Shown: positions 14,554 to 41,875 of the stretch, one piece after another | How the letters are laid out: each line of letters begins with the position of its first letter | Numbering within the stretch: the first letter of the stretch is position 1 | Translations under genes and position numbers: made by a program | The notes under the pieces: generated by a model | Told to the model about the DNA's origin: nothing | What the model saw: the letters and a program-made list of their open reading frames with translations, nothing else | The model's database searches: none | Source: Botrimarina mediterranea | Lineage (GTDB): Bacteria; Planctomycetota; Planctomycetia; Pirellulales; Lacipirellulaceae | Length of the DNA: 64,000 nucleotides | Assembly: GCF_007753265.1 (NCBI RefSeq) | Contig: NZ_CP036349.1 | Span: 2,017,363 to 2,081,362 of the forward strand | Direction of reading: 5' to 3'

Positions 14554-15441
14554 CTAAGCCGGCTTTACCGCGAAGATGCGGACGCTCGCGGCGAACGCGT
14601 TGACGTTGTAGCGGGTCAAAAGATCGACGAGCTGGCTATGGATCTCGGAAGTCGCGACGGGCGGCGTTGAGCCACAGCAGCCGCCGAGCTCCACCACCGG
14701 GAGGCCATCCTCCGCCGGCGCGGGGACGCAGCAGGCCGCGTTTTCGGCTTTGGCGTAGGCGTTGAGGTCGGCGCCCGTGTCGAGAACCTCGACCGCTTCA
14801 AAGCCCGCGTCGCGGAGCGTCTGGCGGTACTCGTCGATGAGGATCGCGCCCGCTATGCAGCCGACATACGCCGACAGATTGGCGGCGACCTCTTCGGGAA
14901 GCATTTGCTTCAAGGCGATGTCGCTCACCGCGACGCGGCCGCCCGGCTTGAGCACCCGAAAGACCTCCCGCAGCACGGCGCCCTTGTCGGGGGCGAGGTT
15001 GATGACGCAGTTGCTGATGACGCAATCGACCGTTGCCTCTTCGAGCGGCAGCTTGTCGATCGTCGAGAGATGGAACTCGACGTTCTCGACCCGGCTCTTG
15101 GCGGCGTTGCGGCGGGCCAGGTCGATCATTTCCTGACTCATGTCGATGCCGATCGCCTTACCGGTCGGACCAACCTTCGGCGCCGCCAGCAGTACGTCGA
15201 GCCCGCCGCCGCAGCCGAGATCGACGACGACTTCGCCGGCACGCAGCCGAGCGGTCGCGGTGGGGTTGCCGCACGAGAGGCCCATGTTCGCCTCGGCGGG
15301 GATTGAGGCGAGTTCCTCAGCCGAGTAACCGAAGGCTTCCGCGACGGCCTTCACGCCGGCGTGGTCGCTCGAGAGCCCCCGCGTCGCGACGGCAGAATAC
15401 TGTGTGCGGACTTGGTCGATGACTTCGTTCGAGGCGCTCAT
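14554..15441 (-). CDS. arsM: Arsenite S-adenosylmethionine methyltransferase
   Basis: 295 residues. The SAM motif [16 protein letters not shown] is near residue 70. The three cysteines needed for As(III) binding appear in [17 protein letters not shown] and YVGCIAGA. It methylates arsenite to mono- and dimethyl species in the cytoplasm. Further cysteine pairs (AACC, GGCCGS) lie in the C-terminal part. ATG 15441 is chosen over an upstream in-frame start at 15543, which would overlap acr3. It is the last gene of the ars operon. Confidence 0.93.
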
Positions 15442-15512
15442 GCTTGGGCTCCGGAGGTAGTTGTTGGATTGCGTTGCCGTTTGATCTGAGCCGTGGGAAA
15501 TATCGCTCGGTG

Positions 15513-16571
15513 TTAAACGTGTTCGGGCGACGCGGAGAACCATCCCTCAGTACGATTGGCGAAGGCCACTAACGCCAGCATCACCGGGACTTCCACCAAG
15601 ACGCCCACCACCGTCGCCAACACGACGGGCGACGAGGGGCCGAAAAGCGTGATGGCGACCGCGACCGCCAGTTCAAAGAAATTCGAAGCGCCAATCATCC
15701 CCGCCGGCGCCGCGATGTTGTGGGGGCACCGCATCTTCTGGCAGGTCAAGTAAGCGATGAAGAAAATCAGCACCGTCTGAATCACCAGCGGGACCGCGAT
15801 CAGCGCAATGTGCAGCGGGTTGTCGAGGATGACGTGTCCCTGGAAAGAGAAGATCAGTACGAGCGTCAGCAGCAAGCCGACGATGGTCACGTTATTGAAG
15901 CGGGCCAGGAACGTGTGGTTGAAGTAGTCAAGGCCGTGTCGCTTGATGACAGCGGCGCGCGTTGCGATCCCGGCAACGAGCGGAATCACGACGAAGAGCA
16001 GCACCGACAGCAGCAGCGTGCCCCACGGGATTGCCACCCCGCTCACCCCGAGCAGCAGCGCAACGATCGGGGTGAACGCGACCAAGATGATCAAGTCGTT
16101 GGTGGCGACCTGCACTACCGTGTATGCCGCATTGCCGCGTGTGAGATGGCTCCAGACAAAGACCATCGCTGTGCAGGGCGCCGCTCCGAGTAGGATGGCG
16201 CCGGCGAGGTAGTCCTTGGCGAGGTCGTGCGGAATCAATGACTTGAAGACGACAAAGAAGAAAAAAGCGGCGATCGCGAACATCGTGAAAGGTTTGATCA
16301 ACCAATTGACCACCCACGTCACGTAGAGCCCCTTCGGGTTCGCGCCGACATATCGAATGCTGGCGAAATCGACCTTCATCATCATTGGGAAGATCATCAG
16401 CCAGATCAGCACCGCGATCGGGATCGAGACCTTTTCGTACTCGAATCGCCCGAGAAACTCGGGGATTGCCGGGAGGTACTTCCCGATCAGCGTCCCCGCC
16501 GCCATGCAGAGGGCGACCCAGTAGGTCAGATTCTTCTCGAAGAAGCCGATCGTGGCCGTGCTCTGGTCCAT
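15513..16571 (-). CDS. acr3: ACR3-type arsenite efflux transporter
   Basis: 352 residues with about ten membrane helices. Family landmarks include the pore cysteine region [20 protein letters not shown] and the late [18 protein letters not shown] block. It exports As(III) using the proton gradient in the inner membrane. AGGAG six bases upstream supports ATG 16571. It lies 36 bases after arsC in the same operon. Confidence 0.95.
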
Positions 16572-16607
16572 CTGAATCTCCTAAGGCGCGTTGGCGCCTG
16601 TCAGCGA

Positions 16608-17033
16608 TCAACCTTGCAGTGATTGCGGCAGCGTCGCGACGTAGTCACGTAACTCGTCACGGACACGCCGGTAATGCCCAAGAGCCTCCACTTCGCTCGC
16701 CGCTTCGCGCGCCAAGCGCGGCGGGTCGTCGAACGGGCGATGCACCACTTTTGCGGCGCCGCGGAAGATCGGGCACGACTCGGCCGCGTTGTCGCAGACG
16801 GTGACGACGTAGTCGAACTCGACGTCCGCTAGTTCATCGACGTGCTTGCTGTGCTGCGGCGTGATATCGACGCCGGCCTCGGCCATGACGGCGATGGCGT
16901 GCGGATTCATGCCGTGCGTGGCGACGCCGGCCGAGTAGGCCTCCAGGGTGTCTGACTTCAGATGGTGGGCCCAGCCCTCGGCCATCTGGCTACGACACGA
17001 GTTGCCCGTGCAGAGAAAGAGCACCTTTAGCAT
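16608..17033 (-). CDS. arsC: Arsenate reductase, LMW protein tyrosine phosphatase type
   Basis: 141 residues. The P-loop C8-T-G-N-S-C13-R14 is the CX5R motif of thioredoxin-coupled ArsC; further cysteines lie in VTVCDNAAESCP. It reduces arsenate to arsenite, supplying the substrate for Acr3 and ArsM. Its ATG overlaps the end of arsR by seven bases, indicating translational coupling. Confidence 0.94.
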   Translation of the reverse strand: MLKVLFLCTGNSCRSQMAEGWAHHLKSDTLEAYSAGVATHGMNPHAIAVMAEAGVDITPQHSKHVDELADVEFDYVVTVCDNAAESCPIFRGAAKVVHRPFDDPPRLAREAASEVEALGHYRRVRDELRDYVATLPQSLQG

Positions 17034-17398
17034 TTGCAGTTCGCCTGTTGGCGGCAGAGTTCTTCGGGGGGCATTTTGAGGACGACCTTGAGGGTCTGCT
17101 GGTCGGCTTTGGCTTGCTTGTCGCGGGCAAGGCTTGCGAGCACCAATTCCAGCGCCTGCCGGGCTTCAACGGGCGAATCCTCTTCCGCGAGCCGAAAATG
17201 AGCCCAGCGGCCTTCCTTACGCGACTCGACGAGCCGCGCCTGGTGGAGCACCGACATGTGCTTCGACACGGTCGATGACGCCAACGCCAGGACCTCGACT
17301 ATCTGGCAGAGACACAGTTCGCGGTCGCGCAATAGCCCCAGCGCGCGGACGCGGTTCTCGTCCGAGAGGGCTTTGGTGACAGCGAGGAGGTCTCTCAT
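17027..17398 (-). CDS. arsR: ArsR/SmtB family arsenic-responsive repressor
   Basis: 123 residues. Winged helix with the metal-sensing pair C29 and C31 in ELCLCQIVEVL, followed by the recognition helix ASSTVSKHMSVL. As(III) binding at this alpha-3 type site releases DNA. The tail ends NCKC, two more cysteines that could be a second metal site (inference). First gene of the ars operon; a palindrome over the promoter lies 21 bases upstream of the ATG. Confidence 0.94.
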   Translation of the reverse strand: MRDLLAVTKALSDENRVRALGLLRDRELCLCQIVEVLALASSTVSKHMSVLHQARLVESRKEGRWAHFRLAEEDSPVEARQALELVLASLARDKQAKADQQTLKVVLKMPPEELCRQQANCKC

Positions 17399-17903: not shown

Positions 17904-17946
17904 CGGGCCCTCCTGGCTTTAATATGAGCGATCGAAAAAAGGAACT

Positions 17947-18031
17947 GTGGGAGGCGTCTCCAGACGCCGATTACGCGCACCATGTCTAATCGGAATGGAT
18001 GCCGTAATCGGCGTCTGGAGACGCCTCCCAC
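17947..18031. repeat. Perfect 28-base inverted repeat
   Basis: Arms 17947-17974 and 18004-18031 (starting GTGGGAGGCGTCTCCAGACG) are exact reverse complements around a 29-base loop. It begins 16 bases downstream of the stop codon of the PEP-CTERM gene and could end its transcript. Confidence 0.85.
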
Positions 18032-18047
18032 AGGAGATGCAAAAGGT

Positions 18048-19043
18048 TTAGCTGCGACGAAGCGCCGCTATTGCGGCGAGGCCGACAAGGGTCAGCAATG
18101 CGCTGGTCGGCTCGGGCACGGAGTTCAGCACGCCCACCGCGCCGGTCGGGAGGCCGAGGTAGTCGAAGCCGGCCGAGTCGTAGGTTAGCCAGTTGTCGAG
18201 GATCGCGTTGCCCAGCGAATCGCGGGCGACGCCCGTTAGCGTGCCGCCGGCGCCATCGGAGAGGTCGCCGCTGCCGACCACGTCGACGAGTCGCACGTAG
18301 TCGATCGCCGTGATATCCACGACGCCGCCGGTCACCAGCGGGTCGCTCGCCAGTTCGGCGAGATCGAACGGCGTGCCCCAGTTCGCGGTGTGCTTTCCGG
18401 CGAGGTTGTAGAGGTTCGTGGCGTCGTAGGCTTGGAAAGCTCCCGAGACCGTGGTCGGCACCGTGTTCAGCGAGACCGATGGGAAGCGGAGAAAGTCAAC
18501 ACCGTTGCTAGAGACTTCGACATAGGCAAGCTCAGCGAGCAGGCTCGTGGCGCCGCCGAATGCAAAGGCGTTTTCGAACACGGCGAAGTCGGGCCCGGCG
18601 CCGTCGGTGATCGGCTTGGCGAACCCGAGCGTGATCGCGCCCGGGGCGTCGATGCCGATGAACCCGTAGGTGTCAGTCGTGCTGTCAATATCGCCGCTGA
18701 ACGGATCGCTAACCGCCGAGCCGGCATGGAAGTTGTTGGGTTCGGCGCCGGTTTGCGGAGCGTAGAGCTTGTTGAAGGGCGCGTTGGCGCCACCCGGCGC
18801 GGCGACGGGGCTGTAGAGTTCACCCAAGGAACTCAATGCGGTAGCGGGTTTGCTGAAGTTGGCGCCAACGCCGGGCGACGGCGCGTAGTTGACGACCGAA
18901 GACTCGAACGTTGTGATGCTCGCACGGGCAATCGGGTTGTCCGGCGCCCCGGCGGTGACGCCAGAGTAGCTCGAGTAGGGACCCGCTTGGGCGACGCCGA
19001 TCGTGGCGCCGAGAGCGATTAAAGGGAGACTGGTGCGGATCAT
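18048..19043 (-). CDS. PEP-CTERM surface protein under B12 riboswitch control
   Basis: 331 residues. A signal peptide ends around AQA (residue 23), and the C-terminus is a PEP-CTERM signal (SVPEPTSALLTLVGLAAIAA, then RRS), so an exosortase should process it at the cell surface. The core has the pattern GPDFAVFENAF, AYVEVSSNGVDFLRFPS, NWGTPFDLAEL and ITAIDYVRLVD, resembling surface proteins found in cobalamin-uptake loci of Bacteroidetes (from memory). With a cobalamin riboswitch 300 bases upstream, a role in capturing corrinoids is plausible (inference). ATG 19043 has GGAG upstream; a TTG at 19052 is less likely. Confidence 0.82.
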   Translation of the reverse strand: MIRTSLPLIALGATIGVAQAGPYSSYSGVTAGAPDNPIARASITTFESSVVNYAPSPGVGANFSKPATALSSLGELYSPVAAPGGANAPFNKLYAPQTGAEPNNFHAGSAVSDPFSGDIDSTTDTYGFIGIDAPGAITLGFAKPITDGAGPDFAVFENAFAFGGATSLLAELAYVEVSSNGVDFLRFPSVSLNTVPTTVSGAFQAYDATNLYNLAGKHTANWGTPFDLAELASDPLVTGGVVDITAIDYVRLVDVVGSGDLSDGAGGTLTGVARDSLGNAILDNWLTYDSAGFDYLGLPTGAVGVLNSVPEPTSALLTLVGLAAIAALRRS

Positions 19044-19340
19044 GAGTTGCAACTCCTGCAGTCAAAAGAAGGAAACGCGGATAGCGACGTCGCCAACCGC
19101 TGTCAAATACGGAAGAGCGAACGCCGGCCCGCCGCTGCGCACCGGTGGCGCAGAGGAGATGGAGACGCATGGGACTCGAGCGAGAATGAAAGCGGCGTTA
19201 GCACTCGCGCACCGTCAGCCGTGGCGCAGGGCAGGAGCCCTTCACCCAACGGCGTACGCCGTCACAGCACGGAGACACGGGAACAACGCAGCGATGAATG
19301 CGACGGCGGCTTTCCCTCGAAGCCGATCCGATGCCACGCG

Positions 19341-19532
19341 TTGGTAGGTCTTCTGACTCCCGGGCTCGCCGTGCCCTGCCTTCTCACTCACCTTCGCTTG
19401 ATGCGAAAGGTGGGTAATGGCTCTGAAGAAGGGGCTCGGCGTGTGTCGCCCGGTTACAGCGGCGGGGCCGTCCCGGAATCACACCGGGTTCCCTGTTACG
19501 TCGGCCTCGCAAGGGGCGAGACCGACCACCAA
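19341..19532 (-). promoter_or_regulatory. Cobalamin (B12) riboswitch
   Basis: On the minus strand the closing stem pairs TTGGTGGTC (19532-19524) with GACCTACCAA (19350-19341). Between them are the conserved blocks AACAGGGAA, GTGATTCCGGGACGG, CCGCCGCTGTAACCGG and GGGAGTCAGAAGACC, the hallmark of the RF00174 family. It lies in the leader of the PEP-CTERM gene (start 19043). Binding of adenosyl- or methylcobalamin should lower its expression. Confidence 0.93.
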
Positions 19533-41803: not shown

Positions 41804-41875
41804 TGGGGATTGGTGTAATCGGTAGCACGACGGATTCTGATTCCGTTAGTCGGGGTTCAAGTCCCTGATCCCCAG
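41804..41875 (+). tRNA. tRNA-Gln (anticodon CTG)
   Basis: Acceptor TGGGGAT (41804-41810) pairs with ATCCCCA (41868-41874), with G as discriminator. The anticodon stem ACGGA/TCCGT encloses TTCTGAT, anticodon CTG. The T-loop GGTTCAAGTCC is present. U1-A72 and G73 are identity elements of tRNA-Gln. CCA is not encoded. Confidence 0.95.

Follow-up and report, generated by a model that had tools for sequence, protein, structure and literature searches.

Import of vitamin B12 in E. coli is served by BtuB and BtuFCD, which are often under the control of cobalamin riboswitches. In Bacteroides, a further B12-binding protein, BtuH, has been described (PMC8941943, PMC10404256). In BtuH2 of B. thetaiotaomicron, Asn399 makes a polar contact with B12 near the phosphate, while the lower ligand is in van der Waals contact with Phe401 (PMC8941943). 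DUF4465 proteins also bind B12, including one from the planctomycete Mucisphaera calidilacus (PMC13398666).

Our literature searches, which do not reach most of the subscription literature, found nothing linking a cobalamin riboswitch with planctomycetes, with or without a surface protein, nothing joining vitamin B12, riboswitch, planctomycetes and TonB, and nothing joining PEP-CTERM, vitamin B12 and riboswitch. Cobalamin riboswitch and PEP-CTERM were co-mentioned only in a denitrifying-reactor study. Here we examine a stretch of 64,000 nucleotides (hereafter the window) from the genome of the planctomycete Botrimarina mediterranea (contig NZ_CP036349.1). We conclude that one of its genes, preceded by a cobalamin riboswitch, probably codes for a corrinoid-capture protein of the BtuH type that is sorted by exosortase, although there are no binding data.

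The riboswitch and the gene behind it

The minus strand of the window carries a full-length cobalamin riboswitch aptamer (RF00174, 19326..19548). The cmscan match at 19548-19326 covers model positions 1-189 of 189 with 96.3 bits (E 9.6e-23), exceeding the gathering score of 31.5. An original prediction, made from the letters alone, had placed a complete minus-strand aptamer at 19341-19532; this is the core of the match, and the covariance-model scan is above the gathering threshold across the whole aptamer. A leader of 282 nt (19044..19325, minus strand) runs from the aptamer to the start codon and contains a GGAG at 19056-19053, nine bases 5′ of the ATG at 19043, which is likely the ribosome-binding site. 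A promoter or terminator separating riboswitch and gene would have refuted the prediction; a simple consensus scan of the minus strand found nothing resembling either between the two. No expression platform was recognised in the leader, i.e. neither a terminator nor a sequestering hairpin, by consensus scan and by folding against shuffled sequences, the folding of 19020-19330 being no stronger than that of the shuffles (z -0.11). Control of the gene by the riboswitch is inferred, not measured.

The first gene downstream is a 331-aa ORF (18048..19043, minus strand, with its ATG at 19043), and the claim that it encodes a protein with a signal peptide and a PEP-CTERM signal holds, with the qualification that the signal peptide (residues 1-20, 18984..19043, minus strand; MIRTSLPLIALGATIGVAQA) is an inference made by eye without a predictor. 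The PEP-CTERM exosortase sorting signal occupies residues 308-330 (18054..18122, minus strand). It passes NCBIfam TIGR02595 (PEP_CTERM) with 17.0 bits against a cut-off of 16 and falls just under the Pfam PF07589 cut-off (20.4 against 20.7 bits). These scores are near the cut-off and are counted against our explanation; sorting of the protein to the surface is likewise inferred. Residues 28-305 (18129..18962, minus strand) form a BtuH-like beta-sandwich domain according to an AlphaFold2 model and its comparison by VIA. The domain includes the motif GPDFAVFENAF (residues 150-160, 18564..18596, minus strand), which was defined from alignments, and the motif YVEVSSNGVDF (residues 174-184). Besides PF07589, no Pfam family matches the protein at E <= 1, PF14717/DUF4465 included. 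The protein has no cysteine, and so none for a lipobox, and neither a PKD domain nor a beta-propeller.

Beyond the gene lies an inverted repeat whose 31-bp arms match perfectly around a loop of 27 nt (17945..18033, minus strand); a T-rich run, TTCCTTTTTT, comes after it on the minus strand. The repeat is likely the end of the riboswitch-gene transcription unit, this function being inferred, and no further copy of its core was found in the window even when 3 mismatches were allowed. Past the repeat there is a 93-aa ORF and then an arsenic-resistance operon (14554-17398, minus strand) with genes for an ArsR-type regulator, an arsenate reductase, an ACR3 exporter and an arsenite methyltransferase. 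That the riboswitch also drives this operon is thought unlikely, since the inverted repeat and the T-rich run intervene. The window also contains a tRNA gene (41804-41875, plus strand; 62.5 bits).

Conservation and origin of the pair

Of 59 genomes searched, 21 (its own among them) have a match to the window protein, confined to the C-terminal part in two cases. When genome contigs were scanned, relatives were found to be encoded in 425 stretches, and the best 80 of these were used as homolog loci. RF00174 is present at 60 of these best 80, and at 47 of the 57 among them with at least 5 kb of upstream sequence; all 62 matches lie upstream and on the strand of the gene. The riboswitch is absent from the remaining 20, ten of which have at least 5 kb upstream, and these are counted against the pairing. 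Within the family of the window's genome (43 genomes searched, its own included), a domain profile gives 27 matches in 25 genomes. All but one of them (26 of 27, in 24 of the 25 genomes) lie at most 5 kb downstream of a riboswitch on the same strand; at the single exception, the match and the riboswitch of that genome sit on separate contigs. In other families of the order, a homolog occurs in 8 of 23 genomes, with a riboswitch upstream at 8 of 8 loci. A rough estimate puts chance proximity at 0.0005 per homolog match (1.27 riboswitches in 5 Mb, reach 4 kb). A lack of conservation in relatives would have overturned the original prediction; on both the best-locus and the family counts, the riboswitch-protein pair is kept.

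The converse relation is weaker. Half of the family riboswitches (26 of 52) have no BtuH-like or DUF4465 match within 5 kb at the thresholds used, which we also count against the pairing. Six of these 26 sites were read, and a PEP-motif ORF lies downstream in all six and a divergent BtuH-like gene in three.

Several further observations were made at the surveyed loci. A divergent BtuH-like subfamily with FGN or FTN motifs occurs in riboswitch operons (L165-L168, L170, L171, L173, L175, L178, L180, L182 and L184); the gene preceding a member of this subfamily often encodes a PEP-CTERM protein without a DUF4465 match. The homolog in Rhodopirellula baltica BR-MGV (L029 5900-6965) is split over two reading frames, by an assembly error or because the gene is broken. 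An int-alpA RNA lies near one homolog locus (L152 288-353), its score barely above the gathering score.

Two cobalamin riboswitches were detected in the window's genome. The second one precedes a DUF1559/N_methyl gene and then an overlapping DUF4465 gene (Pfam 7.7e-55), whose product has a PEP-CTERM-like tail (17.3 against the Pfam cut-off of 20.7). The whole locus (L003 7384-11907) comprises an ArsP-type permease, the riboswitch, DUF1559, DUF4465 and a methyltransferase-like ORF, the last identified by eye. A frequent order in relatives is permease, riboswitch, DUF1559, DUF4465 or another PEP-CTERM gene, BtuH-like gene and methyltransferase. In the window's own genome, the BtuH-like gene is absent from this second locus and stands in the window behind a riboswitch of its own. 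The window riboswitch is 74% identical to the other copy in the genome, 72-74% identical to those of the three other genomes of the genus, and 57-60% identical to those of Tautonia and two relatives from the order. In a protein tree (47 rows, selected from the loci and without sequences shorter than 140 aa), the window protein groups with genes from other planctomycete families, those of the same Tautonia and order relatives, and with one from a metagenome-assembled genome of Chthoniobacteraceae (Verrucomicrobiota) (support 100/98). The simplest account of these sequence comparisons would be a native riboswitch copy standing before a gene that has passed between lineages, although ancient paralogy remains possible.

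Likeness to BtuH and gene neighbourhood in other phyla

The AlphaFold2 model of the window protein has a pLDDT of 81.8 and a pTM of 0.86. Among 990 chains compared by VIA, the best match is 7biz_A, BtuH2 of B. thetaiotaomicron (Z 12.2, rmsd 3.3, 158 residues aligned), and the second is 8blw_B, BtuG1 (Z 12.1, rmsd 3.2, 167 aligned). The latter is aligned at 393-658, which is its BtuH-homologous C-terminal extension (PMC10404256). A carbohydrate-binding module follows in third place with Z 7.9. A divergent family member has the same two chains on top (Z 12.7 and 12.1, the third match at 10.4), and Foldseek matches it to 8blw_B at E 1.1e-6. For the window model, Foldseek alone also places 8blw_B first, yet with an E-value of 5.2e-3 (TM-score 0.40); this E-value is counted against the likeness, as is the breadth of the fold class (discoidin/CBM32), in which many matches reach Z 6-10. 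Structure prediction ranks two B12-binding chains, BtuH2 and the H-domain of BtuG1, at the top. The original prediction had held that the core blocks of the protein recall surface proteins in cobalamin loci of Bacteroidetes; these fold matches bear it out, and so does the occurrence of the same domain beside TonB-receptor, DUF5074 and BtuF-type genes in Bacteroidota loci (see below).

At the level of sequence, the likeness is hard to detect. A plain phmmer search of the PDB with the window protein was set aside, as it returned only two matches, both at chance level (E 1.1 and 1.6). When three profiles were searched against 177,635 PDB sequences, the BtuG1 chain was the best match outside T9SS tails for each (E 3.3e-5, 4.3e-4 and 1.4e-4), the last two profiles matching the H-domain across only part of the domain. 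At E <= 0.001, the first profile also matched T9SS tails; beyond these, the BtuG1 H-domain was the only match. None of the three profiles matched BtuH2 itself at E <= 10, and BtuH2 was reached only via the BtuG1 H-domain (E 1.4e-16). The apparent sequence similarity of the window protein to BtuH is therefore marginal, covers part of the domain and lies near the detection limit. A full BtuH, sought with the BtuG1 piece in the genomes of 15 Bacteroidota loci, was not found; this search had no positive control.

Homologs were aligned from 72 of the 80 loci (alignment A2, leaving out L029, L038, L040, L063, L087, L092, L104 and L105, where ORFs were missing, broken, very short or very long) and from 63 of these 72 (alignment A3, leaving out L061, L068, L074, L082, L083, L094, L100, L101 and L107). 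The invariant positions common to 64 domain sequences lie in the blocks GPDFAVFEN and GTPFDL. Asn158 does not vary in either of two alignments, one with 73 rows and one with 64, and Phe160 is kept in 90% or more of the rows of the former. Through a chain of alignments via 8blw_B, Asn158 falls on Asn399 of BtuH2. Phe160 falls on Phe401 by spacing only, residue 401 of BtuH2 being outside the alignment inspected. The BtuH2 residue numbers assume a shift of 100, itself inferred, between deposited and published numbering. Moreover, in this region the alignment covers only 7biz positions 218-300; the contacts Gln333, His476, Tyr510, Trp511, Trp577 and Leu578 could not be mapped, a limit that is counted against the match. 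Binding of corrinoids by the window protein is an inference without a measurement behind it.

Gene neighbourhoods were tallied by phylum, with phylum labels assigned by hand from the titles of the records, gene clusters named from one Pfam-scanned member each, L137 left out as it shares a contig with L047, and loci from L138 on counted as riboswitch-bearing from the family and order-level scans. The counts are lower bounds because contig ends cut many loci. A TonB receptor stands beside the domain in 24 of 45 Bacteroidota loci, and a DUF5074 protein, which we take to be BtuG-like, in 27 of 45. A BtuF-type gene occurs at 8 of the 97 loci tallied. Two Sumerlaeota loci have the order riboswitch, BtuH-like domain, DUF1559, BtuF-type protein and ABC ATPase. 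Both the BtuH-like domain and DUF4465 are present at 36 of 94 domain loci. With a home-made profile, DUF4465 sequence is found fused in 9 of 97 domain proteins, two of these being a short piece at a contig edge; by Pfam, DUF4465 is found in 4 of 73 domain members. Single proteins joining DUF4465 and the BtuH-like domain, in either order, were seen at L039, L046, L049, L052, L063, L145 and L153.

The sorting tail on the domain varies with lineage. At a Pfam E <= 0.001, Por_Secre_tail is found in 35 of 73 members and PEP-CTERM in 6, while by a looser pattern the ORFs that end in a PEP-like tail number 18 of 25 in planctomycetes, 6 of 16 in Verrucomicrobiota and none of 44 in Bacteroidota. DUF1559 pilin-like genes are present at 17 of 24 loci in planctomycetes, at 11 of 16 in Verrucomicrobiota, at both loci in Sumerlaeota, at both in Lentisphaerota and at none of the 45 in Bacteroidota, whereas TonB receptors were found at none of the 24 planctomycete, 16 Verrucomicrobiota and 2 Sumerlaeota loci, at 1 of 2 Lentisphaerota loci and, as above, at 24 of 45 Bacteroidota loci. 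This contrast between phyla is confounded with phylogeny, because the DUF1559 paralogs are described as forming a large family, one apparently restricted to Planctomycetes (PMC10632474). DUF1559 was seen here in other phyla too.

Corrinoid supply and comparison with known systems

Botrimarina mediterranea seems to need B12. Its genome encodes MetH, and CbiC, a marker of corrin-ring synthesis, was found in none of the 43 family genomes (7 of 14 controls positive), so that the cell probably needs imported corrinoid. Neither a TonB-receptor barrel (PF00593; 3 of 14 controls positive) nor a BtuF-type protein (PF01497; 13 of 14 controls positive) was detected in the window's genome, the only one to which these two results apply. 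FecCD gives one weak match there (37.8 bits, to part of the model), as it does in most family genomes, and matches of at least 141 bits occur in 5 of the 43; BtuC is thus neither found nor excluded in the window's genome. As one marker was searched per function, other forms of synthesis or transport remain possible. Exosortases are represented by four PF09721 matches over the cut-off at three places (best 199.5 bits; 1 of 14 controls positive).

We propose that low cellular cobalamin would leave the riboswitch unbound and the gene expressed, a logic also reported for B. theta (PMC12751083). The signal peptide would export the protein and an exosortase would fix it at the surface, where the beta-sandwich domain is predicted to bind cobamides at a site that includes Asn158 and Phe160. 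Captured cobamides would then be passed to an uptake route that is not yet identified. Since the genome yielded neither a TonB-receptor barrel nor a BtuF-type protein in our searches, this route may involve the DUF1559 pilin-like protein from its other cobalamin-riboswitch operon. DUF1559 is a bold candidate for a partner, put forward because it belongs to the same riboswitch regulon and because, in PVC and Sumerlaeota loci, it is found where Bacteroidota have TonB receptors. The broader idea that the family acquires corrinoids without BtuB/BtuF, using riboswitch-controlled, exosortase-anchored BtuH-type and DUF4465 catchers, with DUF1559 replacing the TonB-dependent receptor, is tentative, and we regard it as a possibility rather than a probability.

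The protein could be regulated by cobalamin and yet bind something else at the surface, e.g. a glycan, with a discoidin-like fold that merely resembles BtuH. The fold matches that come after the two B12 chains are indeed carbohydrate-binding modules and other discoidin-like domains, reaching Z 7.9 for the window model and 10.4 for the divergent relative, and sequence similarity to BtuH is weak. We nevertheless consider this unlikely, as the two B12-binding chains head both fold rankings, the Asn of the BtuH2 site is matched, and the domain adjoins or is fused to DUF4465 and sits in loci with TonB-receptor, DUF5074 and BtuF-type genes. Little credence is given to a protein that binds corrinoids only to store, share or scavenge them outside the cell without feeding the cell's own uptake: MetH without a detected CbiC points to a probable need for imported corrinoid, and transporter genes accompany the gene in other phyla, even if the lack of a detected TonB-receptor barrel or BtuF-type protein in the genome fits storage and the BtuJ proteins of B. 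theta act on vesicles (PMC12751083).

It is also hard to believe that the window riboswitch is a relic that has lost control of the gene. Such a reading could appeal to the second aptamer copy, 74% identical to the first, and to the absence of a recognisable expression platform, but it would have to explain why all 189 model positions are still matched at 96.3 bits and why the gene stands behind an aptamer despite being away from its usual place in relatives.

A riboswitch-controlled, exosortase-sorted corrinoid-capture protein, as the original prediction had suggested, thus remains our preferred reading. On this reading, BtuH-type capture of corrinoids is not confined to the lipoproteins of gut Bacteroidetes and also involves planctomycete proteins that are sorted by exosortase. 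The surveyed loci show one domain with differing sorting tails (T9SS, PEP-CTERM or none recognised) standing behind cobalamin riboswitches in several phyla. A testable question also arises, namely how B12 is supplied to a bacterium that encodes MetH but in which CbiC, a TonB-receptor barrel and a BtuF-type protein all went undetected. The operon of riboswitch, DUF1559, DUF4465 and BtuH-like gene offers concrete genes and proteins for this question, and a possible role for one out of many DUF1559 paralogs.

Among known systems, the LIC_13355 family lipoproteins (NF033170) are matched weakly by 28 of the 73 homologs in the alignment, the best at E 1.9e-8; this identity was rejected for the window protein, which scores 16.5 bits, far under the curated cut-off of 120 bits. 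Neither the TonB-receptor barrel nor the BtuF-type protein of the E. coli BtuB/BtuFCD system is detected in the window's genome. BtuJ/DUF4465 proteins (PF14717, IPR027828) are surface B12-binding proteins that are linked to and fused with the window's domain, and one such gene sits behind the other riboswitch of the genome, although the window protein itself has no DUF4465 match. The C-terminal targeting motif IPR013424 is presumably the PEP-CTERM signal. It is reported on 88 of 824 DUF4465 sequences (PMC12751083).

The closest systems are BtuH2, a surface lipoprotein (7biz), and the H-domain of BtuG1, or BtuGH (8blw). BtuH proper in B. theta has a lipoprotein signal together with N-terminal PKD domains or a beta-propeller, whereas the window protein has none of these and a PEP-CTERM signal instead, and it comes, unlike them, from a planctomycete genome without a detected TonB-receptor barrel. 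Because it lacks a cysteine, PKD domains and a beta-propeller, we regard it as a variant with a BtuH-type domain rather than as BtuH. By prediction, it has the fold of BtuH2 and the BtuG1 H-domain over residues 44-305, and it matches the Asn of the B12 site, the Phe fitting by spacing only; like their riboswitch-controlled B12 locus (PMC10404256), its gene stands behind a cobalamin riboswitch.
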